DNA from: Promicromonospora sp. AC04
GTDB lineage: Bacteria > Actinomycetota > Actinomycetes > Actinomycetales > Cellulomonadaceae
Assembly: GCF_003058225.1 (NCBI RefSeq)
Contig: NZ_QBUG01000007.1
Span: 225,498 to 289,497 of the forward strand
Length of the DNA: 64,000 nt
Direction: 5' to 3'
Part shown: positions 15,101-38,182 of the stretch, one piece after another
Layout of the letters: each line of letters opens with the position of its first letter
Position numbering within the stretch: the first letter of the stretch is position 1
Notes under the pieces: generated by a model
Databases searched by the model: none
Told to the model about the DNA's origin: nothing
The model's input: only the letters and a program-made list of their open reading frames with translations
Translations under genes and position numbers: made by a program

Positions 15101-15346
15101 GTGCGGCGCCGAACCGCACGCTACGGGTCGATCCAGCCGAGCCCCGGCGCCGAACCGCAAGCCGCGAGTCGATCGGGCCGCGTACCGGCGTCGAACCGCA
15201 AGGCACAGGTCGACCCAGCCAAGCTCCCGCGCCGAACCGCAAGCCACGAGTCGATCGGGCCGCATACCGGCGTCGAACCGCAAGGCACAGGTCGATCCAG
15301 CCAAGCTCCCGCGCCGAATCGCAACTTGGAGTTCGATCCCTGGGTC
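15101..15346. repeat. 41-bp tandem repeat array, six copies, alternating two subtypes
   Basis: The core GCCGAACCGCAAG or GTCGAACCGCAAG recurs with CGAACC/CGAATC starting at 15110, 15151, 15192, 15233, 15274 and 15315, exactly 41 bases apart. Two subtypes alternate: GCGCCGAACCGCAAGCC then CGAGTCGATCGGGC, and GGCGTCGAACCGCAAGGC then CAGGTCGA.CCAGC. The true period of near-identity is therefore about 82 bases. The last copy diverges. An inverted copy of the core lies at 15388-15405. Confidence 0.92.
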
Positions 15347-15514: not shown

Positions 15515-15542
15515 AAGGCCCCGGACCGTGGTCCGGGGCCTT
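15515..15542. terminator. hairpin terminator at the left edge of the integrated element
   Basis: A perfect 12-bp stem, AAGGCCCCGGAC with GTCCGGGGCCTT around CGTG, then TT. It abuts the tRNA-Val 3' fragment, so before integration it was probably the terminator of the tRNA-Val gene on the minus strand. Confidence 0.8.
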
Positions 15543-15545
15543 TTC

Positions 15546-15568
15546 GGTGGGCGATACTGGGATCGAAC
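15546..15568. repeat. left attachment site, tRNA-Val 3' end fragment
   Basis: GGTGGGCGATACTGGGATCG plus AAC; 23 bases identical to 28791-28813. On the minus strand it is the T-arm and acceptor 3' half of tRNA-Val with no 5' half, so it is a recombination scar and not a tRNA gene. Confidence 0.9.
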
Positions 15569-15617
15569 TGTTCCAGTACCGGCTCTCACCTGCAACGACA
15601 GTGTCTCTGAGCCAAAC

Positions 15618-15636
15618 GTGGGACCGCAGTGGGACT
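15618..15636 (+). promoter_or_regulatory. putative integrase arm-type sites, left pair
   Basis: GTGGGACCGC at 15618 and GTGGGACT at 15629, 11 bases apart, 50 bases inside the left core. The same pair with the same spacing occurs at 28665-28685. Confidence 0.6.
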
Positions 15637-16032
15637 GGGGTCTTCGCAGGTCGGCGGGCCGTGCAGATCATGCTGTCACAGGCCGGGGACGTCGAAGCGG
15701 GTGCAACGACGTCCGGCAACGATCTTACGGTTCAGGCCCCAGGTTGGCGAAACGCGGAACACAGCATCTTCCTTCAGGTGCATGGCTGTCTATGGCGGCG
15801 GTGGGTTCTACGACTGCATGTCGACGTGGAACGACTCCATCGCGCGTCGAGCAGATCGCGCCGCCCTGCCCGCCTTGACGCTCCCGCGGCGCAGAAGGCT
15901 CGGGCGTTCCCTTCTGTGGTCCTCGATTGTGCGGCACGAATATGCAACCCCACTCGGTCTCGGTTTGCCGACGATGTCAGAGGCGGGTGCAATGCTTCTG
16001 CTGGACGAGGTTCCGACAACGAAGGGAACGAC
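15637..16032. other. left-end non-coding stretch of the element
   Basis: About 400 bases. A frame from 15385 stays open through it into the OLD-like gene, but its predicted residues are Arg/Ser-rich and repeat-derived and look non-coding. Nothing else recognised; the promoter of the next gene is presumably here. Confidence 0.5.
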
Positions 16033-17805
16033 GTGGGGCCACAGTACGAGCCGCTTCTGCCGGGGATCGCGTTTGGCGGCTACCGGTCTTTCGCGAAGAG
16101 CCAGAAATTCCTGTTCCCGACAAAGGTCACGGTTCTGGCGGGCGTGAACAACAGCGGCAAGTCGAACGTCCTGAGGTTCCTCCAGGATGTGCTCCCCACG
16201 CTCGGCGGTCGCCGAGAACGCCAGCGCATGCAGATGCAGGCCCCGACACTTTCCGACCTAGATCGTCCTCGGGGGTTTGAGGGTGCCGCGACTTTCGAGA
16301 TCGGCTTCCCGACCACCCTCAGTCCCGCCGGCACAGACTCTCCACAGGTGCTGGCGCGTGAGGCACATCGCCAACAAAGCCTTCCTGCGTACCAGAACGC
16401 CGTGATGAGGATGCTGTCTGACGACGGCCTGGTCTACTGGTCGCGATACGCGACTGGTGACGGTGCCACACCCTCGCCCTCGGCGGACTCCGTGGGGACG
16501 GCAATGGCGCTATGGCCCGACTACTCGGCGACGTTCAGGAATGTTCTCGACGTCCTCGGCGGTGGGACCGTGGAAGAACGTGATGTGATGACTCGGCTCC
16601 TGGAGTCGATCCCGATCCCACTTGTTCCCACGGTCGTCACCATCGCTGGGTCTCGGCGAGTCGAGGCCAAAGAAGGAGACCCCGACTGGAGCTCAGGCCA
16701 GGGAATCATTGGGGCGCTCGCCAAACTTCAGAACCCGACACACGGCGACTGGGAGCAGTCACAGTCGAGCTGGCAGGCGATCAACCGATTCGTACAGACC
16801 GTTCTTGGTGACACCGACGTGCGCCTTAACGTCCCGCACGACCTCTCGACGATCCAGGTGGCGACGGCTCAGCGCGTTCTCCCGCTCAGCAACCTCGGGA
16901 GCGGCGTCGAGCAAGTCGTCGTGCTTGCCGCGGCAGCGACCGTGGTTTCGAAGACGTTGGTCTGCGTCGAGGAGCCGGAGACCAACCTCCATCCATTGCT
17001 GCAGAAGAAGTTGCTGCGATACCTCACCGACGAGACGGACAACCAGTACGTCATCGCGACGCACTCCTCGCACTTCCTGGATGACTCTCGCGCCACGGCC
17101 TACAACGTCCGGCTGACGGTGGAGGGAACGCAAGCTCAGGTCGCCAGGCGGCAGCACGAACTGGTTCAGATCTGCAACGACCTCGGATATCGTCCATCCG
17201 ACCTGCAGCAAGCGAACTGCGTGATCTGGGTGGAGGGCCCGTCCGACCGCACGTACGTCCGCCGATGGCTCGAGTTGGTCGACCCGGTTCTCGCCGAGGG
17301 TATCGACTACAGCGTGATGTTCTACGGCGGCCGCCTCCTCTCGCATCTCAGCGTTAGCGAGGGGGCCCTGAACGACTTCATCAGCCTTCGGCGCCTGAAC
17401 CAGGTCGGCGCGGTCCTAATCGACTCGGACAGGACCGGGCCGAGGAAGCGCATCAACGCAACGAAGCAACGAATCTGCTTGGAGTTCAGTGAGGGCGAAC
17501 CCGCGCCCGGTCTCGCCTGGGTCACCGACGGGTACACGGTCGAGAACTACATCCCTGCCGATGTACTCACGAAGGCGGTCGGCCAGATCCATCCGACGAC
17601 CGCCTTCGAATCCGGTGACAAGTGGACGAACCCGTTTCCCAAGCGCGAGAAGGGTGCACAATTCGACAAGATCGCGATCGCGCAGGCGGTGGCCGAGCTC
17701 TTGGAACCGCGGCACCTCGACGTCCGCGACCTTCGTAAGCAGGTCACGGCCCTGCGTGACTTCATCCGCACGGCGAACGGCCACTCGATCGCGCCAGCGC
17801 AATGA
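16033..17805 (+). CDS. OLD-family ATPase with TOPRIM nuclease domain
   Basis: A 590-residue protein starting at a GTG (16033) with GAAGGG 6 bases upstream. The N-terminal ABC-type ATPase has Walker A GVNNSGKSN (37-45), a signature-like NLGSGVEQVV (about 287-296) and Walker B CVEEPETNLHP (about 311-321), followed by a switch-region ATHSSHFLDD. The C-terminal TOPRIM domain shows VIWVEGPSDRTYV (about 398-410) with the catalytic Glu and VLIDSDR (about 461-467) with the DxD, then DGYTVENYIP typical of OLD proteins. Length and order match P2 Old and GajA-like nucleases that act against phages. No UvrD-like GajB partner is adjacent; the next gene is a GHKL/STAS-like protein. Likely stand-alone OLD or part of a different two-gene unit. 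Confidence 0.88.
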   Translation: MGPQYEPLLPGIAFGGYRSFAKSQKFLFPTKVTVLAGVNNSGKSNVLRFLQDVLPTLGGRRERQRMQMQAPTLSDLDRPRGFEGAATFEIGFPTTLSPAGTDSPQVLAREAHRQQSLPAYQNAVMRMLSDDGLVYWSRYATGDGATPSPSADSVGTAMALWPDYSATFRNVLDVLGGGTVEERDVMTRLLESIPIPLVPTVVTIAGSRRVEAKEGDPDWSSGQGIIGALAKLQNPTHGDWEQSQSSWQAINRFVQTVLGDTDVRLNVPHDLSTIQVATAQRVLPLSNLGSGVEQVVVLAAAATVVSKTLVCVEEPETNLHPLLQKKLLRYLTDETDNQYVIATHSSHFLDDSRATAYNVRLTVEGTQAQVARRQHELVQICNDLGYRPSDLQQANCVIWVEGPSDRTYVRRWLELVDPVLAEGIDYSVMFYGGRLLSHLSVSEGALNDFISLRRLNQVGAVLIDSDRTGPRKRINATKQRICLEFSEGEPAPGLAWVTDGYTVENYIPADVLTKAVGQIHPTTAFESGDKWTNPFPKREKGAQFDKIAIAQAVAELLEPRHLDVRDLRKQVTALRDFIRTANGHSIAPAQ

Positions 17806-18132
17806 GCAAGGTTTGTGGCCACGTGTAGGAACTTCTCGAAGATCCACGGTTGCCCGGCGGAGCCTGCCACCACCCGTTCCTGCTCGTGCTGATGGTGGCG
17901 ACTCTCTTCGGACTGCTCCGGTAGCAAGACAATGGGGCCCAGTTCGCAGGAGCCGGTACGAGCGTCATCCGCTCGATGCACGCTCGGATCCACTCGCTGA
18001 AGCGTCATACAACATGGGTGGTCCACAGAGCTACCGCGGGTGAACTTGGCTCGCACCTGGGTGAACTCGCGTCCCGCTGCCACCGAGCGCGTAGGCAGAA
18101 CCACCTTTGTCAGGTAACTTCCGGACAAGGCT
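17806..18132. other. gap between the OLD-like gene and the GHKL gene
   Basis: 327 bases with no convincing open frame in either direction. Not a tight operon spacing, so the GHKL gene may have its own promoter here. Confidence 0.5.
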
Positions 18133-19395
18133 ATGCTGTCCCCGGACGGTCGATCCCTTAGGTTGAATGTGACAGATCCTACGAACACTCACGCCCACAT
18201 TAAGATTGACTATCTCAACTCGACTACCGCAACCAACACCCTGATTCGTACCTGGCGAACGCTTCGGGACGGCGCCCACGTCGTGGTCGACTTGAGCACA
18301 ACGGAACGCATTTACCCGAACGGCACCGTCCCACTGGCTGCAACGATCGCATACTTGAACAGCGTCCGGCCAGGATCAGTAGTCGTGGACGTCGGTGAGC
18401 AATCGAAATTGCATCACATTCAGTCACCACTTACGGTCCAGGGATTCGATCGCAGCCTGGGACATACCCGAACCAACTCGGTGTGGGTCTATCGATCTGA
18501 AGTCGAGGCTCAACAACTCGCGAACGATTTGATTGAATTCTTGGCCGATAACGTTCCTTGCGAAGAAGGTGTCATCGACACGTTGAATTGGTGCCTCTAT
18601 GAGGTAATGGACAACGTATTTCAACACAGCCAGGCCGAATCCGGATTCGTGATGATGCAACTCCACCGGACTCAGCGCCTGTGCGTCATCGGCGTTGCCG
18701 ACACTGGAATCGGAATCCAGAAATCCCTGGTAACCTCCGCGTCAATCCCCCGGCCAGAATTGAAGGACGCTGGACTTGCGATTGCAAAGGCACTCGAGCA
18801 GGGTGTGACGAGCAAGGTGCGGCTCAACCAGGGCAACGGACTCTTCGGTCTCCGGCGGGCAGTCGAGCTCAACGGTGGGTCCCTATCCGTTCGTTCCGGA
18901 CGGGGCACGTGGCAGTTGCAGAAAGGCGCTGTTGAGCACTCACACACCCCCTCAACTCCCGTGCCCGAAGCCGAGAATCACCAGGCGACGCTCGTTGACT
19001 GGCGGCTTGAATGTGCCAAGAGGGTACGAATCGACGAGGCGCTCGGCGGATCGTACGCGCCGATTAATGAATTTCTTGAATCCATCGAGGATCCAGAAGG
19101 CGCATATAGAGTTCCCGTGGTGGACATCGAGCGCGCTCTCGGATCTCGCAAACTGGGAGCCGAGATCCGCACACGTCTTGAGAACTATCTCCGGGCGGGC
19201 GCGCGCTATATCGTCCTCGATTTCAAAGGCGTCGGAGTCATTTCTTCCAGCTTCGCGGATGAAGTGCTAGCCAAGCTCGCAGAGTCCATGGGTGAGTTGG
19301 AGTTCCGCCGTCGCATCTATGTTGACAGCGCCTCGATCACGAACCGAGGTCTTATCGATCGGGCTATTGCACTGCGGTTGGGCCAATCTCCGTAA
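18133..19395 (+). CDS. GHKL ATPase flanked by STAS-like domains (C-terminal DUF4325 type)
   Basis: A 420-residue cytosolic protein. Residues 25-105 resemble a STAS-like fold. Residues 145-262 form a histidine-kinase-type ATPase: N box WCLYEVMDNVFQHS (153-166), G1 VADTGIGI (188-195), and G2 QGNGLFGL (233-240). There is no H box or dimerisation domain of a true kinase. Residues 325-415 (VVDIERALGSRKL, then YIVLDFKGVGVISSSFADEV) match the DUF4325 STAS-like family, usually encoded as a separate gene beside such ATPases. This resembles anti-sigma or partner-switching architecture fused in one chain. Start uncertain: the ATG at 18133 lacks a good ribosome site, and a GTG near 18169 is possible. Role with the upstream OLD nuclease is inference. 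Confidence 0.8.
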   Translation: MLSPDGRSLRLNVTDPTNTHAHIKIDYLNSTTATNTLIRTWRTLRDGAHVVVDLSTTERIYPNGTVPLAATIAYLNSVRPGSVVVDVGEQSKLHHIQSPLTVQGFDRSLGHTRTNSVWVYRSEVEAQQLANDLIEFLADNVPCEEGVIDTLNWCLYEVMDNVFQHSQAESGFVMMQLHRTQRLCVIGVADTGIGIQKSLVTSASIPRPELKDAGLAIAKALEQGVTSKVRLNQGNGLFGLRRAVELNGGSLSVRSGRGTWQLQKGAVEHSHTPSTPVPEAENHQATLVDWRLECAKRVRIDEALGGSYAPINEFLESIEDPEGAYRVPVVDIERALGSRKLGAEIRTRLENYLRAGARYIVLDFKGVGVISSSFADEVLAKLAESMGELEFRRRIYVDSASITNRGLIDRAIALRLGQSP

Positions 19396-19759
19396 CAGGC
19401 CGCGGCACCCGCTCCATCGCACGCACCGTGTCGCTCACCGAAGCTCCGGGCGCGCCAGCGTCGGGATGGTGGAATCCCGCAGGGCATCGGCCCCGCAAGC
19501 TCGCCGTCGGGATGGGACTGCTGCACTTGGGCTGAGGCACCCCCACCAGCCCCAGCCCTGCAGCACGTCGTCCGTGCTGTCAAGATTTCTGGGGCCGTCC
19601 CTGTGCCGATCACGCACGCAATGGGTGAATCTACATCTTCACCCGCCGTCTCTGCGGAGGGGCACCCATGCAGCAAATAGCATCAAACATGCGCCGAACG
19701 GCCGAGCGGTCCGAGGCGGATGGGCTGCGCGGATACATCCGTGAACACAGGAGGTTCAG
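19396..19759. other. gap upstream of the lipoprotein gene
   Basis: 364 bases. Short frames are present but none has a ribosome site or protein-like composition. The last bases carry the GGAGG of the next gene. Nothing else recognised. Confidence 0.5.
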
Positions 19760-20302
19760 GTGCGCATACGAACGCTCATCGCCAGAACTACCCTCATCGT
19801 TATGGCACTTAGCGGGTGCTCCGGCGGTGGGGAGCCAGCCAGCCCAGTTGTGACCAGTTCGGCGAAAACAGCTACCTCTCCTGCACAGCCCGAGACGGCA
19901 ACGCCGGAGCAGTTGGCATCGATCATCGCCGGCAACGAGACCGACTGGCGCGAGACGATCGACGGCGCGGGCGAGTGCAGGATGCTCTGGGTCGTTCCGT
20001 CGGATGACGCAGCGGTTCAGGCAAATGCCTTCTCGTGCTATCTGCGAGAGCAGACAATCGTCCTTTCCACCGGCAATGCGGCACGGGACCTACGTGAGCT
20101 GGCACCGCCGAACGACATGCGGAGCACCTACGACGAGACGCTGAGCGCGCTCGACGAGATCAGCAGCGTGGATCTCACTGGAGTGTGCGGGGAGGACTCG
20201 GTCCCTGCGGATTCCGACGAGTGCATCCAGACGCTCGGCACACTGTTCGCGGCCTACAACGGCTTCGAGAGCGTGCTCGACCAGTGGAAGCCCTACATTT
20301 AG
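19760..20302 (+). CDS. small secreted lipoprotein of unknown function
   Basis: A 180-residue lipoprotein starting at a GTG with GGAGG 5 bases upstream. The signal peptide MRIRTLIARTTLIVMALSGC ends in the lipobox LSGC with Cys20. A Ser/Thr/Pro/Ala linker of about 30 residues follows, then a globular acidic domain with four further Cys (ECRM, SCYL, VCGE, ECIQ) that could form two disulfides outside the cell. No family recognised. It is a host-surface type gene inside the mobile element; superinfection exclusion is one possibility, without direct evidence. Confidence 0.8.
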   Translation: MRIRTLIARTTLIVMALSGCSGGGEPASPVVTSSAKTATSPAQPETATPEQLASIIAGNETDWRETIDGAGECRMLWVVPSDDAAVQANAFSCYLREQTIVLSTGNAARDLRELAPPNDMRSTYDETLSALDEISSVDLTGVCGEDSVPADSDECIQTLGTLFAAYNGFESVLDQWKPYI

Positions 20303-20487
20303 GGCTCTTGGAGTCCGGGCCAGGCATACCCCGCTCGGACACTCGGGATCAGGACTTCTATACCCAGGAAAAGATCGACGGCCCCAGTTCCAGGGCCTCA
20401 ACCAGCAGACAGAACTGTCCGCGGGCTTGATCGAGCGCCGCGAGCGCTCCACTATGCGACTCGGTGCGTCACGATACGCTCAATCGG

Positions 20488-22584
20488 TCAGAACTTGGGC
20501 TTCTCAGCCGTGTCGACCCAAATGTATCGGGGCAATCTGGAAATCGGGATGGTATTACCTCGCCCGTGTTGTGCCAACATCGATTGCTCTGCGCGTTGGC
20601 ATCCCAACCGCCCAACAGCTAGAGACACGGCCTCCAGCGCTGCGCCCAGATTGTCGGCGTTGCCGATGCCCGCAACTACCAGAGGATGTTGATTGGGCGC
20701 GCGGCGCACGTCGGAGAGCAGTCGTTCTACAGTCGGTGCCGCTACGGGCTTGTCGATCGGCTGGCGGGACCGCACATGGACGCCGACCGGGTTGACACGG
20801 TCAGCAATCGCACTGAGTGCGAGCCCTTCATCCTCCTCCACTTCACGGACGTTCTGAGCTGCGTGTGTGCGTGCTGGCCCCTCATTGGCGTGCATCATGT
20901 CACCGCGCGCGTTCGCGAGATCTCGCCGCTTGGATTCTAGACTGCTGCGCAGGCTGGCTATCTCGGGAATAGTCAATAGGTCGTTGACCATCGCGAGGAT
21001 ATCTGCCAGCTCCCAGGCTTCCTCGTAGGCGCGGGCTCCGAATGCGAGGTGCTCGACAAATATAGGTTTCAGCACCTCAAGCGCCTCTGCTGACGGGGTG
21101 TTCCTCCCGGCGAAGCCGCGAGCCGCCAGGAGTTGGTGTCCCAACGTCGCGCCGTCAGGTGTCTCGCGTTCTGAGCTTGCGCGAAGCAACTGCAGGGAGA
21201 GTTCGAAGCGCCTTGCAGCCACCGAGGCAACGAGTGCGGCCTGGAACAAGAGCGTTCCGCACAATCGAGGGAGCTTCAACAGCTGGTCGCTGCCACCATC
21301 GCTCCGGTCGAGGGAAAGGCGGCGCAGGTCGTCGAACCACCAATGATCGGTCGAATCGTCGCCCCAGTATGCGGCCGAAGCCACAAGAGCGGCGGGGACA
21401 AGTGCCGCTTCGGTGAGTCGGTCGACGATTTGGCCGAGAGGTACGGACTCCAACTCGTTGATCGGCCGGGAAAGGTCCGGGTTCTCCTGCAGGCGCGTCA
21501 GCTCAGTTCGGAGTCGGTCGTGCGTACTGATGGCAACCTGTCGTTTGCCGAGATCGCGCTTCGTGGCGGCCACTGCCTCGGTCACGCTCAGGGGATGGCG
21601 AGCTTGTCGGTCTGCGATCGCGTCGACCGCGTCTGCGAGTCGACCGACTGTCTCGTCCGCGGGGCCCCTCACCTGTACAAACCGTCGCCGGTTCGCCAGG
21701 TCGGTTGCCTTCTGCTTGAGCTCAGCGAGGTCGAACCAGTACGACGGATAGCGCTCCAGGAGATCAGCGTCAAGAACGGCTCGCAGGGCAACGTCGTACT
21801 CGGCCGACCAGCCGACGGCCAACAGGGCGTAGTCGTTGAGAACGTTCTTGAGGAACGCCCGCAGTCCGTCGTCGTAAACAGCAAGCTCAGTGGTCGTGTT
21901 TCGCATCGCGGTCGGGGTCAAGTAGTCACCGTGCAGGTGGACGACAACGGCCCGCAGGGTGTGCAGTGGCGCCAGGCCGGACAGGTCCTCGACGGAGCGA
22001 GCGACGACGGGCTCAATCCCTTCGTCACGGAGTGCCTTCTCCATCAAGTGATCGAAGTTCAGCGTCAGGAACACTCGCAACTGGTTCGACTTTGCAAGGC
22101 GGGCTAGCGCCTTGTGGGCCCCGCTCGGCTGCGGTGCCTCGTGGTCCGCGTTCAACGTCTCTGGCTCGAAAAACTCCCGCAGCAACGCCTGTCGAGCGTG
22201 CTGTGTCGGCGCGAGCGTCTCCAGGAGGGATTCATAGGTTGCCTCGACGCCGTGTTGATTCTGGTACCACTCGTGAGGCTCGGAGATCTCATCCATGACC
22301 CCTTCAGCCCGCGCCACTCTACGAATGAGTTCTTCCTGCACGCCCCACGCAGACGGCACCTTGGCCGAAATCGAGACGCCCGCACCGAGAAGCACAGCAT
22401 GGGAGCCGGGCGTTGCGTCCAAAATGCTTGCCAGCGTCAGCACTGGGTCGAACGAACTGCCCAAGGGTCGCTGCAACTGGTTCTCGACCGGCTCTGTCTG
22501 CACTGCGGATGCTCCGTTCATCATGGGCCCATCGATAGCATGTCGCTCTCCCGACCGTCCGATAAAGGTCGGGTGAACTTGCAT
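20488..22584 (-). CDS. SIR2-domain protein, probable NAD-degrading defence effector
   Basis: A protein of about 698 residues. SIR2 motifs, numbered from the chosen start: VLLGAGVSISAKVPSAWG (about 64-81) as the NAD loop, FLTLNFDHLMEKAL (TxNxD type), VVVHLHGDY with the catalytic-type His, and LLAVGWSAEYDVALRAVL. The C-terminal 400 residues are mainly helical, with no nuclease or protease motif, and could be a sensor. Stand-alone SIR2 proteins with large C-terminal domains deplete NAD on phage infection in several known systems. Start uncertain: the ATG at 22584 has GAGG at a suitable distance, while 22689 and 22524 are alternatives. Transcribed against the left cargo genes. Confidence 0.85.
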   Translation of the reverse strand: MQVHPTFIGRSGERHAIDGPMMNGASAVQTEPVENQLQRPLGSSFDPVLTLASILDATPGSHAVLLGAGVSISAKVPSAWGVQEELIRRVARAEGVMDEISEPHEWYQNQHGVEATYESLLETLAPTQHARQALLREFFEPETLNADHEAPQPSGAHKALARLAKSNQLRVFLTLNFDHLMEKALRDEGIEPVVARSVEDLSGLAPLHTLRAVVVHLHGDYLTPTAMRNTTTELAVYDDGLRAFLKNVLNDYALLAVGWSAEYDVALRAVLDADLLERYPSYWFDLAELKQKATDLANRRRFVQVRGPADETVGRLADAVDAIADRQARHPLSVTEAVAATKRDLGKRQVAISTHDRLRTELTRLQENPDLSRPINELESVPLGQIVDRLTEAALVPAALVASAAYWGDDSTDHWWFDDLRRLSLDRSDGGSDQLLKLPRLCGTLLFQAALVASVAARRFELSLQLLRASSERETPDGATLGHQLLAARGFAGRNTPSAEALEVLKPIFVEHLAFGARAYEEAWELADILAMVNDLLTIPEIASLRSSLESKRRDLANARGDMMHANEGPARTHAAQNVREVEEDEGLALSAIADRVNPVGVHVRSRQPIDKPVAAPTVERLLSDVRRAPNQHPLVVAGIGNADNLGAALEAVSLAVGRLGCQRAEQSMLAQHGRGNTIPISRLPRYIWVDTAEKPKF

Positions 22585-22903
22585 GCCGCACCTCAGCATC
22601 CACCGTTCGCGTTGGGCGTCATCGTGTCCCCGTGTCCCCCACCCTCCGGTCAGGGCCGGACGGTCACTCAGACTTGAATCGCCGTCCACTCACAGCTTGT
22701 GCATTAGGTGTGTCGCCCTTACCAGAGCGGTCCGCGGGACCCGCTGCCCATCCGCTCGACTGCACCACGCAACCGTGTCAGTCGCGTCGCCGCGTCGTCA
22801 GTCACGTGCTGTGCGTCGCGCGGTGGTGCGTCGGCGCACGGGTGCTGGCTGGCTCGGTCCTGCCGGTGCCGGGGCGACGCGAGGCTGGGTCCCCCCAACC
22901 AGC

Positions 22904-22945
22904 CCAAGGGGCCACCATCCCTCGGGAGGGATGGTGGCCCCTTGG
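22904..22945. terminator. strong bidirectional terminator downstream of the HAD gene
   Basis: A perfect 19-bp stem, CCAAGGGGCCACCATCCCT with its complement around a CGGG loop, with TTT on the plus side. It lies about 80 bases past the HAD stop and closes the minus-strand xre-flavoprotein-HAD unit. The remaining bases of 22585-23027 show nothing else apart from the expected SIR2 promoter. Confidence 0.9.
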
Positions 22946-23027
22946 TTTCTACCCGCCGGAGCGGGCTTGCGGCTGGGCGGGTATGCGGGGTCTGGGGCTG
23001 CCCAGCCGCAAGATCGTTGGCGAGCAG

Positions 23028-24236
23028 CTACAGGCCGCTCAGGGGCAGTTCGAAACCGGCGGGGCCCCCGCCGGTGACGCTGCGCCACTGCGCACGGCGT
23101 CGGCCCTCGATCCCACGGGGATACGGCAGTTCGGCCTCCAGCGCGGCGGTTTCGATCGCGCGCATGGTGGTCCCGACTCCGGACGCGATCGGCCCGTGCC
23201 CAACCCACTGACCGTCCTGGACCGTCCCGGCTTCACACCGGGCGAGGTACGGGCCGGTCCCGTGCCAGACCCGGAGGACCACCGGACCGGGCGCGGTCCG
23301 CTCAGCGGTCGCAAGCTGCGCGGCCAGCGGCGACAGTTCATCGCCCACAACCGGGACCAGGGAAGTCAGAACAGGTATGGCCCCGGCCTGTTCGATCGTG
23401 CCGGTGGTCTGATCCGCGGTGCTGCGCACAATCGCAGGGGCCTGTCCCATCGCCACCGACCGTTCCGCCCAGGCCAGCATGTCCAGATCGTTCACGCCGT
23501 CGCCGACCGCCACCGTCCGCTCAGCGAGCACCTTCAGGTGAACACGCACTGCTTCGAGAGCGACGGCCTTGTTCACGCCCGGTGCGGTGACGTCGAGCCA
23601 GTTCGCCCCCTGCGGTGTGACCGTGGCACCGGTAGCGCGAAGCGTGTCTGTGTACCGACGGATCCCGGGTGCAGTGAACGCGATACGGGTCGACGGCTGG
23701 ACCATCAGGCTGTCCATCGGCACGATCTTCTGCTGCCCGTTCAGCTCGCTCGGCTCGAACCCGCCGCTGGTACGCCACCCCCGCCCGACATCTTCGACCG
23801 CCGCCCGCACGCCTGGAGCCACATCCAGGGCGCGACGGATCACCGATGCGGGATCGAAGGTCCGGGCCTCGACGACGTCGTATCCCGAAGGTGCAGCCGG
23901 GTCCAGGCGAACCGTCACGGCACCGTTCGAACACACGGCCCACTCGGTCGTGAGGCCCAGCCGCGTCGCGATCGGCAGCAGCCCCGCCAGAGATCTGCCC
24001 GAGGCCAGCACGATCTTGTGCCCGGCAGCGCGGGCCAGATCCAGAGCCTCGACCGTCCCGGATGGGATCCGACCGCCGCTGTCCACCAGCGTGCCGTCGA
24101 TGTCGAGCGCGACCAGCGTTCGTGCGTGGTCGGTTATCGCCTGGGCTGATCGGTCCGACGTGTCGGACCGTAGCGACACGTCACGACTCGCGGCCCGAGC
24201 TTCAATGTCCTGCTTGGCGAATGGCGGCATGGACAC
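23028..24236 (-). CDS. HAD-superfamily hydrolase with unknown C-terminal extension
   Basis: A 402-residue protein. After a 40-residue leader the HAD core begins with LVALDIDGTLVDSGGRIP (DxDGT nucleophile), then KIVLASGRSLAG (motif 2), GVNKAVALEAV with Lys (motif 3) and VAVGDGVNDLDMLAWAE (GDxxND metal site). This is the Cof-type phosphatase class acting on sugar or nucleotide phosphates. About 120 residues follow the HAD domain (from PVLTSLVPVV onward) with no recognised fold. The gene lies 70 bases after the flavoprotein gene and is probably in the same transcript. A GTG at 24236 or ATG two codons later could start it. Its substrate is unknown. Confidence 0.85.
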   Translation of the reverse strand: MSMPPFAKQDIEARAASRDVSLRSDTSDRSAQAITDHARTLVALDIDGTLVDSGGRIPSGTVEALDLARAAGHKIVLASGRSLAGLLPIATRLGLTTEWAVCSNGAVTVRLDPAAPSGYDVVEARTFDPASVIRRALDVAPGVRAAVEDVGRGWRTSGGFEPSELNGQQKIVPMDSLMVQPSTRIAFTAPGIRRYTDTLRATGATVTPQGANWLDVTAPGVNKAVALEAVRVHLKVLAERTVAVGDGVNDLDMLAWAERSVAMGQAPAIVRSTADQTTGTIEQAGAIPVLTSLVPVVGDELSPLAAQLATAERTAPGPVVLRVWHGTGPYLARCEAGTVQDGQWVGHGPIASGVGTTMRAIETAALEAELPYPRGIEGRRRAQWRSVTGGGPAGFELPLSGL

Positions 24237-24274
24237 AGACTCGCCGGGTCACCAGCGGACGCCAACGGCACCAC

Positions 24275-24290
24275 ACACCACGTGTGGTGT
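24275..24290. promoter_or_regulatory. palindromic operator-like site upstream of the HAD gene
   Basis: ACACCAC-GT-GTGGTGT, perfect 7-bp arms. ACACCAC and GTGGTGT recur in the inverted repeat at 26220-26251 upstream of the xre gene, suggesting one regulator acts at both. Confidence 0.5.
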
Positions 24291-24306
24291 CACAGGATGT
24301 CACTGA

Positions 24307-24846
24307 TCACGATCCCCGCTTCGCCGCGACGGAATCCAGCAGAGGCTCCCAGGGGAAGACATCCAGCGGAGCGTCCCCGCCCCCCGGGGCATGAGGTTCG
24401 AGCGGCCCGTTGACCACGTCGATGCCAGCCTCCTGGAGAGCATCGAGGCTGCGCCGGTAGACGGGGTTAGCGGCGAAGTTGGTGTTGACGTAGGGCGCGA
24501 CGGCGATGGGGATGGCCCGGCCGGTCTGCTCGGCCAGGCGCGTAAGCACGTACGTGTCCGCGATGCCTGCGGCCCACTTGTTGATCGTGTTGTAGGTCGC
24601 CGGAGCGACGATGACGGCGTCAGGGTCAGGCAGCGAGTACCCGACCGTGGTGTGGAAGTCGATCCGCACCGGACGTCCAAGCGTCTCCTCGATCGCGCGG
24701 ATCGCCTCCGGGTACACCGCGACCGCTTGCTGCGTCGCCAGGCAGTACACATCCCAACCTCGATCCATCGCGGCGGGCAGCAGTGCCGTGGCGACACGCG
24801 ATGTGGGACCGGCGGCGGTCACCACCACGAACAGCACGCCGGTCAT
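24307..24846 (-). CDS. flavoprotein of the PPC decarboxylase (EpiD/Dfp) family
   Basis: A 179-residue protein of the homo-oligomeric flavin-containing Cys decarboxylase fold. LFVVVTAAGPTSRVATALL is the N-terminal flavin-binding strand and loop. VIVAPATYNTINKWAAGIAD matches the PASANT-type motif and helix. VAPYVNTNFAANPVYRRSLD carries the N-x-x-M-like region, here without the usual Met. In coenzyme A synthesis this family decarboxylates phosphopantothenoylcysteine; EpiD-type relatives modify peptides. As a mobile-element gene coupled to an XRE/TPR regulator its role is unknown. The ATG overlaps the regulator stop by 4 bases. Confidence 0.85.
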   Translation of the reverse strand: MTGVLFVVVTAAGPTSRVATALLPAAMDRGWDVYCLATQQAVAVYPEAIRAIEETLGRPVRIDFHTTVGYSLPDPDAVIVAPATYNTINKWAAGIADTYVLTRLAEQTGRAIPIAVAPYVNTNFAANPVYRRSLDALQEAGIDVVNGPLEPHAPGGGDAPLDVFPWEPLLDSVAAKRGS

Positions 24847-26048
24847 GCGGCGATCCCCGCCTCGTCCGCCAGAGCGCGCAGACGCTCGTCACGTCCGCAC
24901 TCGCGGGTGGACAAGAGTCGGCGCACGAGATCGGCGGGCTCCGGGCGGCCTCGCACTTCCTGAGGTGCCGCGGAGTCGGCCTCCAGCAGACGACCCAGGG
25001 CGGCCGACGGGCGACCGGTGGACAGCAGTGCCTCAGCGAGGTCCAGGAAGTAGGCCGCTCGTCGTTCTGTGGGCATGGCGGTCACCGCATGCGGCGAGAC
25101 TGTGCGCCCGACGGCGAGAGCGTCAGCTGGTTCCCGCAACCGGACCAGCGCGGCGACCCGGTGGAAGGCGACGTTCGTCGGTCCGAACTGAGTCTCGTGC
25201 CGTTCGTTCTCGCTCACGCCCCGCGCCAGGCTGGCGGCGGCCACGTGCAGTTCCCGTGCTGTGTCGGCGTCGCCCAGGTTCGCCGCGGTGATCTGTGCCG
25301 CGAGCATAAGCATGCCTCGTAGAGGCAACGCCTCGTCCTCGACGGAGGTCAGCGGGGCCAGCCGATCGGCCATGGCAACAGCGGTAGCGATCGAACGCCG
25401 GCTCTGTCCGCAGTGCGACAACGCCCGCGCTACGGATCGGGTCGCACGGGCGAGTGCGACGTCGTCGTCCGATCGTTCCCCGACTGCCATCGCGCGGTCC
25501 GCTGCCAGCCACGCCAGCTCGTTCCGGCGGTACTTGAGCAGCATCGAGCAGGCGAGTCGATATGCCCGCACCTGAGCACGAGCGACGGCCACGGAGTCAG
25601 GTCCGTCAGTGGGTAGTTGCTGGACCGCCACGAGCAGGCCGGGTAGGTAGCGCCCCACCGTGACGAACTCCGATTCCAGCCACGCGGCTCCAAGGCGGTT
25701 CAACAGCGGCGTGACCTCGTCGAGAGACCGATGCCGGTCGGGCTCGGTCACCGAGTACCAGGCCAGCGCGTCGTGAACTCCCGCGATCTCGGCCACATCG
25801 ACCCGCAGCTCTGCCGAGCGGGACGCGCCCCCGTCGATCAGCAGCCTCGGTTCGATGCTCAGCGCGGTCGCGAGACGCTCGATCACGTCCAGGTTGTGCA
25901 AGGGCCGCTCGCCGGCCTCCACCTTCTCCAGCCAGCTCACCGACCGATCAGTCAGCGATGCCAGCTGCGGGCGCGACAACATCCGGCGCTGGCGCCAATA
26001 CCTGACCCGAGCACCAATCGGTTCCACATCGCGCTGTGCCACGCCCAC
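24843..26048 (-). CDS. XRE-family regulator with TPR-like C-terminal domain
   Basis: A 401-residue protein. Residues 10-72 form a Cro/C1-type helix-turn-helix (GARVRYWRQRRMLSRPQLAS and LTDRSVSWLEKVEAGERPLH). The remaining 320 residues are Ala/Leu/Arg-rich helical hairpins resembling tetratricopeptide repeats, as in actinomycete regulators that sense small molecules or peptides. The GTG start at 26048 faces a 700-base leader with several dyads and probably controls this operon and the excisionase side. The next gene overlaps by ATGA. Confidence 0.88.
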   Translation of the reverse strand: MGVAQRDVEPIGARVRYWRQRRMLSRPQLASLTDRSVSWLEKVEAGERPLHNLDVIERLATALSIEPRLLIDGGASRSAELRVDVAEIAGVHDALAWYSVTEPDRHRSLDEVTPLLNRLGAAWLESEFVTVGRYLPGLLVAVQQLPTDGPDSVAVARAQVRAYRLACSMLLKYRRNELAWLAADRAMAVGERSDDDVALARATRSVARALSHCGQSRRSIATAVAMADRLAPLTSVEDEALPLRGMLMLAAQITAANLGDADTARELHVAAASLARGVSENERHETQFGPTNVAFHRVAALVRLREPADALAVGRTVSPHAVTAMPTERRAAYFLDLAEALLSTGRPSAALGRLLEADSAAPQEVRGRPEPADLVRRLLSTRECGRDERLRALADEAGIAA

Positions 26049-26108
26049 ACGCTATCTGCCAGCACCCACCCACGACCACGGACAAGAGTCGCCTGGACGT
26101 GCGAGGGC

Positions 26109-26160
26109 TTCCGTTCTGGCGGGGCCGCACACCAGGGTGCGCGGCCCCGCCAGAACGGAA
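26109..26160. promoter_or_regulatory. perfect 20-bp inverted repeat in the xre leader
   Basis: TTCCGTTCTGGCGGGGCCGC (26109-26128) and its exact complement (26141-26160) flank 12 bases. It lies 60-110 bases upstream of the xre start. It could be a terminator on either strand or a large operator. Confidence 0.75.
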
Positions 26161-26219
26161 ATCAGCACCGGGTCCACTCGCGAGTTGGTGTGCGGATCTT
26201 GACCTGCGGAGACGCCCCC

Positions 26220-26251
26220 GCACACCACCGGTGTGCGGCCCGGTGGTGTGC
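26220..26251. promoter_or_regulatory. 12-bp inverted repeat in the xre leader
   Basis: GCACACCACCGG and its exact complement CCGGTGGTGTGC separated by 8 bases. It contains the ACACCAC/GTGGTGT words also found at 24275-24290. Confidence 0.65.
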
Positions 26252-26412
26252 GCAAAGCGTGCGCTCGATCGTCATCATCGACATATGAACGCATGCCCCC
26301 GCAGCCCCGGCCGAGCCACGGACGCCGGCACGCGACCGTCCCGTCAGGTTGGTGACGGCGATGGACGGAGTGGCATAGGAGGCGTGCCGTCCGGGGGCTT
26401 GAGTATGCGCGA

Positions 26413-26491
26413 GTTGGGGGACATGCGATTTCCCTGCTCAACCCTATGTCCCCCACCTCATCGGGACTCGAAACGGCCCGTTGGGGGACAT
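26413..26491. promoter_or_regulatory. three copies of a TGGGGGACAT motif
   Basis: GTTGGGGGACAT at 26413-26424 and 26480-26491 on the plus strand, and GTGGGGGACAT inverted at 26446-26456. Iteron-like spacing of about 33 bases suggests a protein-binding cluster. Confidence 0.6.
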
Positions 26492-26580
26492 CGAGTGGTA
26501 CGTCGCGGAGTACATGCCCGATGCAGAGTGGTGCGCATGGAGCCGACAAGCACTCGTGCATGCGGCACGACCCGGACACG

Positions 26581-26609
26581 CGTGGTGGTGGCAAATTGCC
26601 ACCACCACG
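26581..26609. promoter_or_regulatory. dyad operator-like site 1 upstream of the excisionase gene
   Basis: Perfect 14-bp arms CGTGGTGGTGGCAA and complement around a single central A, followed by TGACCTGC. The centre CAAATTG and the trailing bases match site 2, 99 bases to the right. Confidence 0.7.
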
Positions 26610-26680
26610 TGACCTGCGCGTCCTCGCAGACGACAACCTTCCCACTGGTGAGCACGGCCGAGAGGACAAACGGGACGATT

Positions 26681-26707
26681 ATGGTTCGGCCAAATTGGCA
26701 CGACCAT
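26681..26707. promoter_or_regulatory. dyad operator-like site 2 upstream of the excisionase gene
   Basis: ATGGT-N3-GCCAA-A-TTGGC-N3-ACCAT, symmetric over 27 bases, followed by ACGACCTGC. Related to site 1. It ends 42 bases before the excisionase ATG. Confidence 0.7.
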
Positions 26708-26749
26708 ACGACCTGCACAAACGCTCCGGCGCCAGCCAGGTGAACCGCT

Positions 26750-26998
26750 ATGGACACGTCACCTCGGTGCAACATCCAAGCCGCTGGCCGCCTGGGCGGT
26801 GGCCGTCGTCTCGTGCCGCTCTCGGTGGCGGCGGAGACGTTCTGCGTGTCCGTCAAGACGATCCGGCGGCGGATCGCGGACGGCACCGTGACCGGTTATC
26901 GGATCGGGCGCTTGATCCGTGTCGACCTCGACGAGATGCATGAGTCCTTTGCCGTGCCGGTCCCCAACGCCAGGGGCCGTGCCGCAGGGCGGAACTAG
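26750..26998 (+). CDS. excisionase-like helix-turn-helix protein
   Basis: An 82-residue protein. The core LVPLSVAAETFCVSVKTIRR followed by RIADGTVTGYRIGRLIRVDL is the winged-helix helix-turn-helix of the excisionase/MerR-like family (SinI/Xis type) that directs recombinase-mediated excision. The ATG is preceded by AGGTGA 8 bases away. It lies 430 bases from the integrase gene on the opposite strand, with the usual xis role in bending attachment DNA inferred from family and place. Confidence 0.85.
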   Translation: MDTSPRCNIQAAGRLGGGRRLVPLSVAAETFCVSVKTIRRRIADGTVTGYRIGRLIRVDLDEMHESFAVPVPNARGRAAGRN

Positions 26999-27042
26999 CG
27001 TGTCGCGTCGACCGATATATTGGAGCGTCTAGAGTCGCCGTT

Positions 27043-27351
27043 GTGAGCGCGAAGCTGACCCACGGGGCATCAGGCGCGCTGCGGCGTTTCGCCGGTTGGG
27101 TTGCTCGCGGGTCGGTTGGGCATCCGCTCCTCGATGGGATCGACTATTGGGACGACCTGCGCGACTCCCCGAGCCAGATGGAGACCCTGTTCGCGATCTT
27201 CGCCAACGTCCTAGAACTCGACGACGAAGGCGAGCCGGTGAACGAGAAGTACGCCGAGCGGCGAGCAGCGGTATGGCTCTACCAGTACTGCACTGGGAGC
27301 CTGCCGCCGGGCGAGCCTGAGCTTGAGAGTTGGGAAGTCGCGCTCTACTGA
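27043..27351 (+). CDS. hypothetical protein of the integrative element
   Basis: A 102-residue acidic soluble protein, starting at a GTG with no strong ribosome site. Protein-like composition (LDGIDYWDDLRDSPSQMETL, then FAIFANVLELDDEGEPVNEK) and a position between xis and int support a real gene. It ends just before a bidirectional terminator. No family recognised. Confidence 0.6.
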   Translation: MSAKLTHGASGALRRFAGWVARGSVGHPLLDGIDYWDDLRDSPSQMETLFAIFANVLELDDEGEPVNEKYAERRAAVWLYQYCTGSLPPGEPELESWEVALY

Positions 27352-27371
27352 CTGTGCGGCACAGCGGGATC

Positions 27372-27401
27372 GGGCGGCGGTCCACTGTGGGACCGCCGCC
27401 C
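27372..27401. terminator. bidirectional terminator between the hypothetical gene and int
   Basis: A perfect 12-bp stem, GGGCGGCGGTCC and complement around 6 bases. It lies between two convergent genes and includes one GTGGGAC word. Confidence 0.8.
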
Positions 27402-27425
27402 AGCTCCGTCAGACGTTGTTGCAGT

Positions 27426-28622
27426 TCATGCCGCACTTCCGCGTGCCGGGCGTGGGACCGCACGCTTCTCGCCGTCAGACCCGGAGCTGGTGCCGCCCGG
27501 CGCGGGCAGCACCACGAGCCCGTCCAACGCCCCGGCGATGCGCGCGTCGGCGCCCTGGACCACCGTCTGGTACCGCATCGCGGCGTTCGGCGTCGTGTGG
27601 CCCAACCGGGCCATGAGTTCAGCGATGGTCGCACCGGTACCAGCAGCGAGCGTGGCCGCCGTCGTGCGCAGGTCGTGCAACCGCAGATCCGGCCGGCCGA
27701 TCGCCTTGCGCGCCTTGTTCCACGCCTCCCAGAACGTCGACTGCGAGATCGGCGTCCCCACCGTCGAGGGGAACACGAGCCCGTCGGGGCCGGGCTGCGC
27801 GCCGTCGTCGAGCTGTTCCTGGAGGGCGGAGGCCACCGCAGGCGGCAGAGCCACCACACGGCGCGCAGCGGCGGTCTTCACGTCGCGCACCACCTTGCCC
27901 CGCCCGCGAAGATTCTGGACCTGGCTGTGCACGCTCACCGTCCCGTGGGCCACGTCCACGTCCCGACGCCGCAGGTTCCGCAGTTCGCCGGACCGCAGCC
28001 CACTCCAGGCCGCGACCAGCACCATCGCCCGGTACCGCTGAGGCAGGTGCTCCAGCAGGGCAGCGACCTCCGCCGGCGACGCCACAGCCTTCGCCGATAC
28101 GCGCGGCGCGTTCGACGCACCGCGCACAGTGCACGGGCTGCGGTCCAGCAGACCATCCCGCACAGCGGCATTGAAGATCAACGACAGGAACCCATACACG
28201 CGGGCTGCCATCGTCGGGCCCGTGGAGCCGCGAACGTCGGTCAGCCACGCCATGACCTCCATCGAGGTCACCGACCGCAGCCCGGCCGCACCGATTGGCT
28301 TGTCCGTGATGAAGCGTTCCCGGTAGCGGTCGTACTCCTCCCGGCTGCGCGGCGACAGGTGCCGCAGGGCGAGGTTCTGCTCCGCGTACTTGTCCACCGT
28401 GATCGACACGGCAGCGGTTCGCCATCCCGGGGGCGTCCACTCACCGCGAGCGATCAGACCCTCTTCCCGGGACAACCACGCCTCGGCGTCGACCTTCGCG
28501 CTGAACGTCAGCGAGTGCTTCACTGTGTCCGGCCCGACGTACCGGGCACGGAACCCCGTCGTCTTGCCGGTCCGAGCGTTCTTGCGACGCTCGACCATCC
28601 CGAAACCGCGCTTCTCTGTCAT
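27426..28622 (-). CDS. int: tyrosine recombinase (phage-type integrase)
   Basis: A 398-residue integrase that recombines the element with the tRNA-Val attachment site. Start ATG 28622 with GGGAGG 7 bases upstream; a longer open frame runs through the tRNA genes and is not used. Domains: AP2-like arm-binding segment at the N-terminus (GFRARYVGPDTVKHSLTF), SAM-like core-binding domain (about 70-165), and the catalytic domain with WSGLRSGELRNLR (Arg I), HDLRTTAATLAAGTG (HxxR box II), LGHTTPNAAMRYQ (LGH and the catalytic Tyr). All catalytic residues visible, so probably active. Downstream of, and on the same strand as, tRNA-Val. Confidence 0.95.
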   Translation of the reverse strand: MTEKRGFGMVERRKNARTGKTTGFRARYVGPDTVKHSLTFSAKVDAEAWLSREEGLIARGEWTPPGWRTAAVSITVDKYAEQNLALRHLSPRSREEYDRYRERFITDKPIGAAGLRSVTSMEVMAWLTDVRGSTGPTMAARVYGFLSLIFNAAVRDGLLDRSPCTVRGASNAPRVSAKAVASPAEVAALLEHLPQRYRAMVLVAAWSGLRSGELRNLRRRDVDVAHGTVSVHSQVQNLRGRGKVVRDVKTAAARRVVALPPAVASALQEQLDDGAQPGPDGLVFPSTVGTPISQSTFWEAWNKARKAIGRPDLRLHDLRTTAATLAAGTGATIAELMARLGHTTPNAAMRYQTVVQGADARIAGALDGLVVLPAPGGTSSGSDGEKRAVPRPARGSAA

Positions 28623-28664
28623 GGCACTACCTCCCACAGTCAGGTGTTCTGCGAACACCGGCCT

Positions 28665-28685
28665 GTGGGACCGCTGTGGGACCGC
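28665..28685 (+). promoter_or_regulatory. putative integrase arm-type sites, right pair
   Basis: GTGGGACCGC at 28665-28674 and again at 28676-28685, 11 bases apart, about 105 bases inside the right core. They also lie just upstream of int, so integrase could repress its own gene. Confidence 0.65.
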
Positions 28686-28744
28686 AGGAGTCCCAAACGG
28701 GCTCCTCATGTCCACACCAGTCCACCAGCACCAGACATGCAAGA

Positions 28745-28780
28745 GGCCCTCTGGCCTGCGTTTCCGCTGGCCAGAGGGCC
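28745..28780 (-). terminator. terminator carried by the element downstream of tRNA-Val
   Basis: GGCCCTCTGGCC pairs with GGCCAGAGGGCC around TGCGTTTCCGCT; on the minus strand the inner part can form GCG-GAAA-CGC. It replaces the original tRNA terminator at 15515-15542. Confidence 0.85.
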
Positions 28781-28790
28781 TTGTCTTGCT

Positions 28791-28813
28791 GGTGGGCGAT
28801 ACTGGGATCGAAC
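28791..28813. repeat. right attachment site inside tRNA-Val(GAC)
   Basis: 23 bases identical to 15546-15568, covering the 3' CC(A) start, discriminator, acceptor 3' strand and T-arm of tRNA-Val on the minus strand. Confidence 0.9.
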
Positions 28814-28864
28814 CAGTGACCTCTTCCGTGTCAGGGAAGCGCGCTACCGCTGCGCCAATCGCCC
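28793..28864 (-). tRNA. tRNA-Val(GAC)
   Basis: A 72-base cloverleaf from 5' GGGCGATTGGCGCAGCGG to ATCGCCCA 3'. Acceptor GGGCGAT pairs with ATCGCCC. The anticodon loop CTGACAC sits between CTTCC and GGAAG, giving GAC. GGTTCGATCC T-loop present. CC of the CCA end is encoded. Integration target of the element. Confidence 0.97.
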
Positions 28865-28865
28865 G

Positions 28866-28936
28866 AGGTGGGTACGGGATTCGAACCCGTGTGTACGGCT
28901 TTGCAGGCCGCTGCCTCGCCTCTCGGCCAACCCACC
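28866..28936 (-). tRNA. tRNA-Cys(GCA)
   Basis: A 71-base cloverleaf starting GGTGGGTTGGCCGAG. The anticodon loop CTGCAAA gives GCA, and the T-loop is GGTTCGAATCC. It follows tRNA-Val with almost no spacer. Confidence 0.97.
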
Positions 28937-28960
28937 GTGCTCCCCACCAAAGCGGGTTCG

Positions 28961-29032
28961 AGCGGATGACGGGACTTGAACCCGCGACCCTCACCTTGGC
29001 AAGGTGATGCTCTACCACTGAGCTACATCCGC
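28961..29032 (-). tRNA. tRNA-Gly(GCC)
   Basis: A 72-base cloverleaf starting GCGGATGTAGCTCAGTGG. The anticodon loop TTGCCAA gives GCC, and the T-loop is GGTTCAAGTCC. First gene of the Gly-Cys-Val transcript on the minus strand. Confidence 0.97.
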
Positions 29033-37928: not shown

Positions 37929-38028
37929 GGCGTGGTGGCCGGCCCACCCGGTGGTGGGGGGCAGCCACGGAGCACAAAAGACCCCCCGACCCTGCGTTTC
38001 CGCTGGTCAGAGGGTCATGCCTTGCTGG

Positions 38029-38100
38029 TGGGCGATACTGGGATCGAACCAGTGACCTCTTCCGTGTCAGGGAAGCGCGCTACCGCTGCGCCAATCGCCC
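38029..38100 (-). tRNA. tRNA-Val(GAC), second copy
   Basis: Identical in its 72 bases to 28793-28864 including the anticodon loop CTGACAC. It contains the same 23-base attachment core (38027-38049) but no element is inserted. A GCG-GAAA-CGC type terminator lies downstream at about 37986-38017. Confidence 0.97.
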
Positions 38101-38111
38101 TTCGTGCTGCG

Positions 38112-38182
38112 AGGTGGGTACGGGATTCGAACCCGTGTATACGGCTTTGCAGGCCGCTGCCTCGCCACTCGGCCAACCCACC
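38112..38182 (-). tRNA. tRNA-Cys(GCA), second copy
   Basis: Nearly identical to 28866-28936; anticodon GCA. Differences from copy 1 lie in the T-stem region (GTATAC for GTGTAC) and the D/variable part (CCACTC for CCTCTC). Confidence 0.96.

Follow-up and report, generated by a model that had tools for sequence, protein, structure and literature searches.

A 13.3-kb integrative element (15546-28813) is inserted at a tRNA-Val gene in a 64,000-nucleotide stretch of Promicromonospora sp. AC04 DNA (the window; contig C7 of a 6.85-Mb genome, G000). The element is probably a relaxase-less integrative and mobilizable element (IME), equipped only with an origin of transfer (oriT) that mimics the oriT of a conjugative element; its mobilization we infer. 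The original prediction, made from the sequence of the window, was of a precisely delimited passenger that carries defence genes and needs something else for its transfer. Both parts are supported by the present analysis, which also points to a candidate for the required partner, namely a conjugative element with a TrwC-type (MOBF) relaxase as found in this genus; contig C15 of the same genome carries one.

Once a helper of this kind becomes active, the integrase (Int) and excisionase (Xis) of the passenger would excise it as a circle, the helper relaxase would nick the motif within the candidate oriT, and one strand would pass through the helper type IV secretion system (T4SS). In the recipient, Int would insert the element into a tRNA-Val gene. 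The space freed of a relaxase would carry interchangeable, probably anti-phage cargo, which may pay for carriage. Many defence islands lack visible means of transfer; here the likely means is a short launch site that the element has in common with conjugative elements of the genus. The range of oriT mimicry would grow to include a MOBF element of an actinomycete, and the analysis provides a testable helper and a motif that can guide searches for further hitchhikers of this type. An array of palindromes forms a second conserved signal.

The element was compared with 12 other genomes of the genus (G001-G012) and with sets of 221 family and 396 order genomes. Locus labels (L082, L123 and so on) denote stretches taken from the compared genomes.

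The candidate oriT and its interpretation

A Pfam scan of ten open reading frames (ORFs) of the element, two of them antisense alternatives, and of the integrase ORF gave no relaxase, coupling protein, T4SS, replication or phage structural domain, and no relaxase was found in the window by tblastn with the C15 relaxase as query. The predicted lack of conjugation, replication and phage structural genes was thus borne out. When 13 C15 ORFs, the relaxase and a 157-aa ORF described below were compared with the element, the best match had an E-value of 3.8e-4 over 26 residues.

A blastn search of the element against its own genome matched window positions 22617-22749 to C15:54072-54206. One end of this match lies just within the C15 relaxase gene, a few bases past its start codon, and from there the match extends upstream. 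From an alignment of the C15 match, the window, L082, L123 (on C1) and L218, a motif, GCTTGTGCANNAGGTGTGT, and a neighbouring conserved stretch were derived. A search of 233 sequences, partly overlapping and 1.95 Mb in sum, gave the exact motif 12 times, representing nine distinct places: the window, L082, L123, L222 and the upstream regions of five relaxase genes (L209, L218, L232, L223 and L226, one of them in the same genome). Allowing up to three mismatches added six distinct places, compared with four for the reversed pattern, so only exact matches were considered meaningful.

In 5/5 relaxase genes of the same TrwC/MOBF clade whose start codon was in the compared sequence, the motif precedes that codon by 69-75 bp; these relaxases are 70-100% identical to the C15 relaxase. 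L209 and L218 were part of the motif-defining alignment, while L223, L226 and L232 were added afterwards and are independent. Upstream of four relaxases of ∼35% identity (L128, L130, L224 and L225), nothing under five mismatches was present within 600 bp (0/4). These counts leave out L090, which is a C-terminal fragment from the C15 clade, and L175, which has 29% identity and no visible start. No relaxase was matched by tblastn in the sequence examined around the motif in the window, L082, L123 and L222, and in the last three the motif lies upstream of a 157-aa ORF that is zinc-finger-like by eye. In the window, the apparent relic of a relaxase start codon (Table 1) opens a frame that stops after nine codons, with the SIR2 gene beyond. 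Judged from these alignments, the element is not devoid of transfer signals: it contains sequence related to the presumed oriT of a conjugative element, and it retains the pre-relaxase motif plus what resembles the relic start of a relaxase gene.

In the candidate helper on C15, a 1791-aa ORF (1769 aa if counted from the likely start) contains a TrwC relaxase domain (E = 1.1e-79); Prim-Pol, M23, a T2SSE ATPase and a TraG/TraD coupling protein are also encoded there.

The same features could be the remains of a once conjugative element after decay at its site, with the transfer genes lost and the cargo kept, so that the oriT-like stretch would be a fossil without present use. The apparent relic start codon adjoining the motif fits such a history, as does a palindrome array shorter in the window than in relatives. 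However, both 23-bp repeats are exact, the int and HTH_17 ORFs are open, and the motif agrees at 19/19 positions with its counterpart in L218, the conjugative element of G009. The relaxase-less arrangement of the motif is also found in L082, at another site in another species, which suggests spread after relaxase loss, and we regard decay in place as unlikely. We consider it quite improbable that the motif is instead a regulatory site of the relaxase operon, used by other genes too. At 8/8 places outside the window it does lie 41-75 bp upstream of a gene (five relaxase genes and three 157-aa ORFs), but the window has kept it where no recognised gene starts at that distance, and among the relaxases compared it is confined to one clade (5/5 versus 0/4). 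In addition, the oriT usually lies directly in front of a MOBF relaxase gene. The original prediction also allowed for a satellite. Phage satellites, packaged by a helper phage, resemble the element in size, integrase, tRNA site and defence-like cargo, yet no phage structural or packaging domain was found by Pfam (PHROGs were not part of the scan) and the exact motif had no match in viral contigs. This alternative is without support and, in our estimation, very improbable.

Several observations weigh against the preferred reading, a relaxase-less IME with a mimicked oriT. Among the four tRNA-Val elements seen end to end, the exact motif is present only in the window and L082, and not in L115 or the right-hand element of L049. 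The alignment with L164, an element of G012, covers just the downstream part, and L164 lacks the motif. The blank result in viral contigs counts here as well, and a plasmid collection gave no convincing motif match (best E = 0.2). The matches of the C15 conjugative element to AAA_10 (5e-5), TrbL (2.5e-4) and ParB_N (1.6e-4) are below the curated cut-offs. Finally, the window array is without a palindrome unit found in relatives, its second palindrome being imperfect.

Relaxase-less IMEs were reported from Firmicutes and Proteobacteria in a 2017 review (PMC5704250), in which the mobilizable genomic islands of the MGIVflInd1 family are described as mimicking the SXT oriT, with mobilization demonstrated. 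Like that family, the window element has its own tyrosine integrase, encodes no conjugation protein, is inserted at the 3′ end of a gene and carries a candidate oriT with a relative in a conjugative element; the family also has a directionality factor, for which the HTH_17 ORF is the candidate in the window. In Gammaproteobacteria the MGIVflInd1 family is helped by SXT, whose relaxase is MobH, whereas the candidate helper here is a TrwC/MOBF element in an actinomycete; the cargo also differs, being SIR2/OLD/GHKL, and mobilization is here proposed on sequence grounds. Integrated elements with only an oriT (iOriT), dependent on the mobilization (MOB) and mating-pair formation (MPF) functions of another element, have been described (PMC11389934). 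The window element, with only a candidate oriT, would depend on another element in the same way; the portion of that account consulted contained no actinobacterial MOBF case and no palindrome array. At the level of titles and the openings of abstracts, no account of such an element was found in the literature on oriT mimicry, IMEs and actinomycete elements. Integrative and conjugative elements of actinomycetes (AICEs) of the pSAM2/SLP1 type have a tyrosine integrase and a tRNA site, and encode a replication initiator and an FtsK-like TraB. The window element shares the actinomycete host, the tyrosine integrase and the tRNA site but has no replication initiator or FtsK-like TraB domain (Pfam). 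Unlike integrative and conjugative elements generally, it has no relaxase or T4SS gene (Pfam, tblastn).

Borders, empty sites and siblings

The direct repeat of the tRNA-Val 3′ end that had been predicted at both limits is the 23-mer GGTGGGCGATACTGGGATCGAAC, and both copies are exact. Two further exact copies, at 38027-38049 and 55628-55650 (minus strand), are the 3′ ends of two more tRNA-Val genes, and 100 dinucleotide shuffles gave no match. The integrase and excisionase-like genes expected at the right end are both in place (Table 1), the latter as a small HTH_17 ORF that remains a candidate. Paired GTGGGAC repeats occur inside both ends and are possibly, on our assumption, integrase arm sites. 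The GC content is 0.650 within the element and 0.704 across the remaining window.

A clean empty site is present in five of the 12 congeneric genomes (G009, G010, G001, G005 and G011). These were classed as empty because the left-flank type of terminator hairpin directly adjoins the 23 bp of an intact tRNA-Val without an insert; the same two upstream genes precede it, and in G011 the 23-mer has one mismatch. Different sequence lies between the left flank and tRNA-Val in G006, G003, G002 and G012, and at the G008 site there are 27 kb, part of which is a related element. This tally leaves undecided G004, whose left flank is broken and whose sequence was not compared, and G007, where contigs end. 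The same genes at the same place without the repeat, which would be at odds with the predicted delimitation, were not seen in the sites from 11/12 genomes (G007 is split by contigs). The comparison of occupied and empty sites shows, as far as DNA alone can, that a tyrosine-integrase element entered the 3′ end of tRNA-Val(GAC) through a 23-bp crossover repeat and left the tRNA gene whole, apparently bringing its own terminator-like hairpin. In G006, G003, G002, G012, G007 and G008 the tRNA-adjacent terminator is of the type at the right end of the element, which may represent either a scar or a native form of older date.

Two copies of the tRNA Val-Cys-Gly cluster are present in the window, at 28790-29032 and 38026-38303. 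The second cluster adjoins a chorismate-binding gene in the window and in 11/12 relatives (G007 runs off its contig), and the first cluster and the sequence between the clusters match relatives. On this comparison the duplication is native to the genus, and the element used copy 1. The interval 28.8-38.0 kb was considered as a second element flanked by a duplicated tRNA cluster and was rejected, as both clusters and much of the intervening sequence match relatives. Between the clusters, alpha-lytic-protease-like genes and RibD-like sequence are repeated.

Relatives of the integrase at E ≤ 1e-90 are found in 6/221 family genomes, including its own, and in five of the six the integrase is beside a tRNA-Val gene (the exception is G209; the G211 locus is cut by a contig end). 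The G009 sibling (L082) lies at tRNA-Val(CAC) between exact 23-bp repeats. It is 88.6% identical to the window element in int, 77% in the HTH_17 protein and 77% in HAD, with DNA identities of 86% at the left end and 85% at the right. Its regulator is partnered by a NUDIX protein and its cargo differs, comprising a SIR2 protein of 1173 aa, whose N-terminal part matches Dsr1 models at 8e-42, and an AAA_15 protein of 712 aa. At L082:11040-11152 there is a second copy of part of the element left end, 81% identical, as if two elements had merged.

An element of 8.7 kb in Paraoerskovia sediminicola (L115) also lies at tRNA-Val(CAC); its 23-bp repeat differs from that of the window at a single base, and it carries type IIG-like ORFs and a Schlafen/AlbA protein. 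The G008 element (L049) occupies the same site as the window element; its ends are 85% and 89% alike, it carries a PDC-M36A candidate, and no integrase match was found in it. At L049:5959-12585 two related elements appear to abut at tRNA-Val with an att core between them, the right-hand one without an integrase match. In G197 the neighbours of a related integrase are an ArdC-like gene and a TraG/TraD coupling protein, and the integrase family therefore also serves elements with conjugation genes. A remnant of a related integrase lies beside a 23-mer copy in G003 (L083:16713-17037), ∼16 kb from tRNA-Val(CAC).

A palindrome array beside the excisionase-like gene

The non-coding array in the window consists of three TGGGGGAC[A/G]T boxes, a perfect palindrome at 26584-26606 and an imperfect palindrome at 26681-26707. 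Thirteen arrays from nine genomes of the genus were compared (the window, L082, L123, L153-L155, L157-L159 and L162-L165). The unit is GGTNNNG..CAA-N-TTG..CNNNACC, spaced ∼100 bp apart and mostly followed by GACCTG; GACC[TA]G was present within 12 bases after 36 of 41 palindromes (at least nine pairs, script count). Two palindromes 104-108 bp apart are present in 12/13 arrays, and at least one TGGGGGAC[A/G]T box in 11/13. The window array has the first palindrome only, plus an imperfect second unit (8/11 pairs, by eye) 97 bp on, and possibly this reflects some decay of the element. The pattern GGTGGTGSCAAWTTGSCACCACC, with at most one mismatch, was found in 13/221 family genomes, some of the matches being the sites in ParB genes, and the reversed control gave none.

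In the 13-array alignment, pairing in the palindrome columns reaches 0.98, 0.98 and 0.87, whereas the median for the rest of the alignment is 0.25. RNA covariation was unsupported, the columns being nearly invariant and the standard pairs within the maximum of the shuffles, and Rfam gave no match above the gathering score over 26000-26800. A protein-coding explanation (ORF 26036-26743) was rejected, since substitutions are even over the frame positions (209, 217 and 221) and one-base gaps are common.

Eleven of the 13 arrays are beside an integrase ORF, and those of L159 and L163 are beside integrase pieces. The elements that bear them adjoin different tRNA genes (Val, Gly and one Pro). Array similarity does not follow integrase similarity: the arrays of L157 and L164 are 91% identical while their integrases are only 36% identical, which makes an integrase arm site an unlikely role for the array. 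The HAD gene is in the array locus itself in 9/13 cases and ∼9 kb off in two more (L229 and L230). Because L159 and L162 own a relaxase (L226 and L223, respectively), the array is not confined to relaxase-less elements.

A hairpin of the array type also occurs inside a ParB_N-like gene of conjugative elements, with the C15 and G012:C4 copies flanked by TGACCTGCG. When 30 ParB_N-like loci, out of 32 matches, were collected by protein similarity, a GGT...ACC palindrome with nine or more of 11 pairs was present in at least 15/30 and one with ten or more in at least 12/30, counting the two best palindromes per locus, with some loci being fragments and three scanned over the whole locus. In a codon-shuffle control, any palindrome of at least ten pairs arose in 0-6 of 40 per gene. 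An earlier explanation of these palindromes as a coding coincidence was withdrawn after the protein-based search and this control. A ParB-like protein binding to the array is a guess that fits, and the hitchhikers would then tap the partition, replication or transfer control of the helper as well as its nickase. Two-signal mobilization, in which the element borrows a relaxase via the copied oriT and a ParB-like factor via the array, is a tentative proposal that we would not favour at present.

Similar palindromes were noted elsewhere. In the ParB_N-like genes of L156:5144, L215:9489, L186 and others, the hairpin keeps its pairing while the sequence, and sometimes the residues, differ. The viral contig L148 has a palindrome in a ParB-methylase gene, which may be chance. 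Plasmid pNAPH of Rhodococcus pyridinivorans (L167:5730-6140) has six similar palindromes (script) in an intergenic stretch, and GACCWG follows three of the six (by eye). Another set of three palindromes, identical in its flanks, is common to L168, L169, L170, L176 and L177 (five genomes, two families), and in L168 a large serine recombinase ORF is beside them.

Genes and cargo of the element

The features are collected in Table 1. The SIR2, OLD-like AAA and GHKL-STAS proteins are likely to be anti-phage, a view based on their families. A PADLOC match at E ≤ 1e-5 was found for 1/10 flanking chromosomal genes, which is a weak test of defence enrichment.

Table 1. Coordinates of features in and around the integrative element
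Feature	Position	Strand	Basis or remark
Terminator hairpin (inverted repeat) of the chromosomal tRNA operon	15515-15542		Displaced from tRNA-Val by the insertion
attL core	15546-15568		23-bp copy of the tRNA-Val 3′ end
Paired GTGGGAC repeats	15618-15637		Inside attL; similar pair inside attR, 28665-28685
OLD-like protein, AAA_21/AAA_15 ATPase with TOPRIM-like motifs	16033-17805	+	Start codon assumed
GHKL ATPase + STAS-like (DUF4325) protein	18133-19395	+	Pfam; PADLOC DrmA model, partial match, 1e-18
Small ORF, lipoprotein-like N-terminus (by eye)	19760-20302	+	ORF, third-codon-position GC (GC3) pattern
SIR2 protein, PDC-S65 family	20488-22524	-	Pfam SIR2_2 1.5e-12; PADLOC PDC-S65 1.2e-122
Apparent relic relaxase start codon	22620-22622	-	ATG 73 bp from the oriT motif, similar context
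Candidate oriT	22685-22775	+	Motif GCTTGTGCATTAGGTGTGT exact at 22695-22713, conserved GCGGTCCGCGGGACCCGC stretch beside it
HAD (Cof-type) hydrolase	23028-24236	-	Pfam; recurrent on elements of the genus
Flavoprotein	24307-24846	-	Pfam
HTH_31 regulator	24843-26048	-	Pfam
Conserved non-coding array	26415-26707	+	Between the HTH_31 gene and the excisionase-like gene
HTH_17 excisionase-like protein	26750-26998	+	Pfam E 0.004, below curated cut-off
DUF7677 protein	27043-27351	+	Pfam E 2.1e-43
Tyrosine integrase, 398 aa	27426-28622	-	Pfam Phage_integrase E 1.3e-22
Terminator-like hairpin, element right end	28745-28780		Replaces the hairpin displaced from the tRNA operon
attR core	28791-28813		Within the intact tRNA-Val(GAC) gene 28790-28864

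Counterparts of the HTH_17 protein adjoin int in the siblings. The SIR2 ORF is open to 22689, but homologues align from about residue 60 and the start is therefore probably near 22524. The match to PDC-S65, a candidate defence family in PADLOC, covers residues 79-569 and profile positions 15-519 of 592; the name was not found in the literature searched. The protein has the SIR2 motifs GAGVS, LNFDH and HLHGD, and its relatives are sporadic (8/221 family genomes at E ≤ 1e-20, its own included). The two SIR2 proteins differ in family, with that of the window matching PDC-S65 and that of the G009 sibling matching Dsr1.

The OLD-like protein matched AAA_21 in Pfam (E = 1e-17), and its best PADLOC match was NsnB (1.7e-19), followed by AriA and GajA; among the PADLOC matches listed, those to GajA have their best stretches in the ATPase part or slightly beyond. 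It carries Walker A and B motifs as well as WVEGPSD and IDSDR, which we read as TOPRIM motifs, and the Pfam scan gave no TOPRIM match. OLD class 1 is a stand-alone AAA ATPase with a TOPRIM nuclease, and in OLD class 2, or Gabija, the AAA-TOPRIM protein is beside a UvrD-like helicase. The latter assignment was rejected, as the neighbour is the GHKL-STAS protein rather than a UvrD-like helicase. The GHKL-STAS protein matched 246 proteins at E ≤ 0.001 and contains the motifs of the GHKL domain. The possibility that it forms a conserved pair with the OLD-like protein was discarded: each is present in 2/396 order genomes including its own, and the second genome differs. The small ORF at 19760-20302, scanned by PADLOC only, gave no match there.

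Five further long matches to the HAD region occur in G000 (on C1, C2, C5 twice and C8) at 65-74% DNA identity, and the HAD-bearing loci L123, L128 and L130 also contain an integrase homologue. Outside the element, about five tandem repeats of 41 bp lie immediately left of the insertion site (15104-15324), tandem repeats of a 23-bp unit (AATGGTCGTTCTGCCGCACGCCC type) lie at 3765-3902, and a chromosomal subtilase-like gene at 61065-63938 has PADLOC matches to subtilase (9.8e-37) and IetS.

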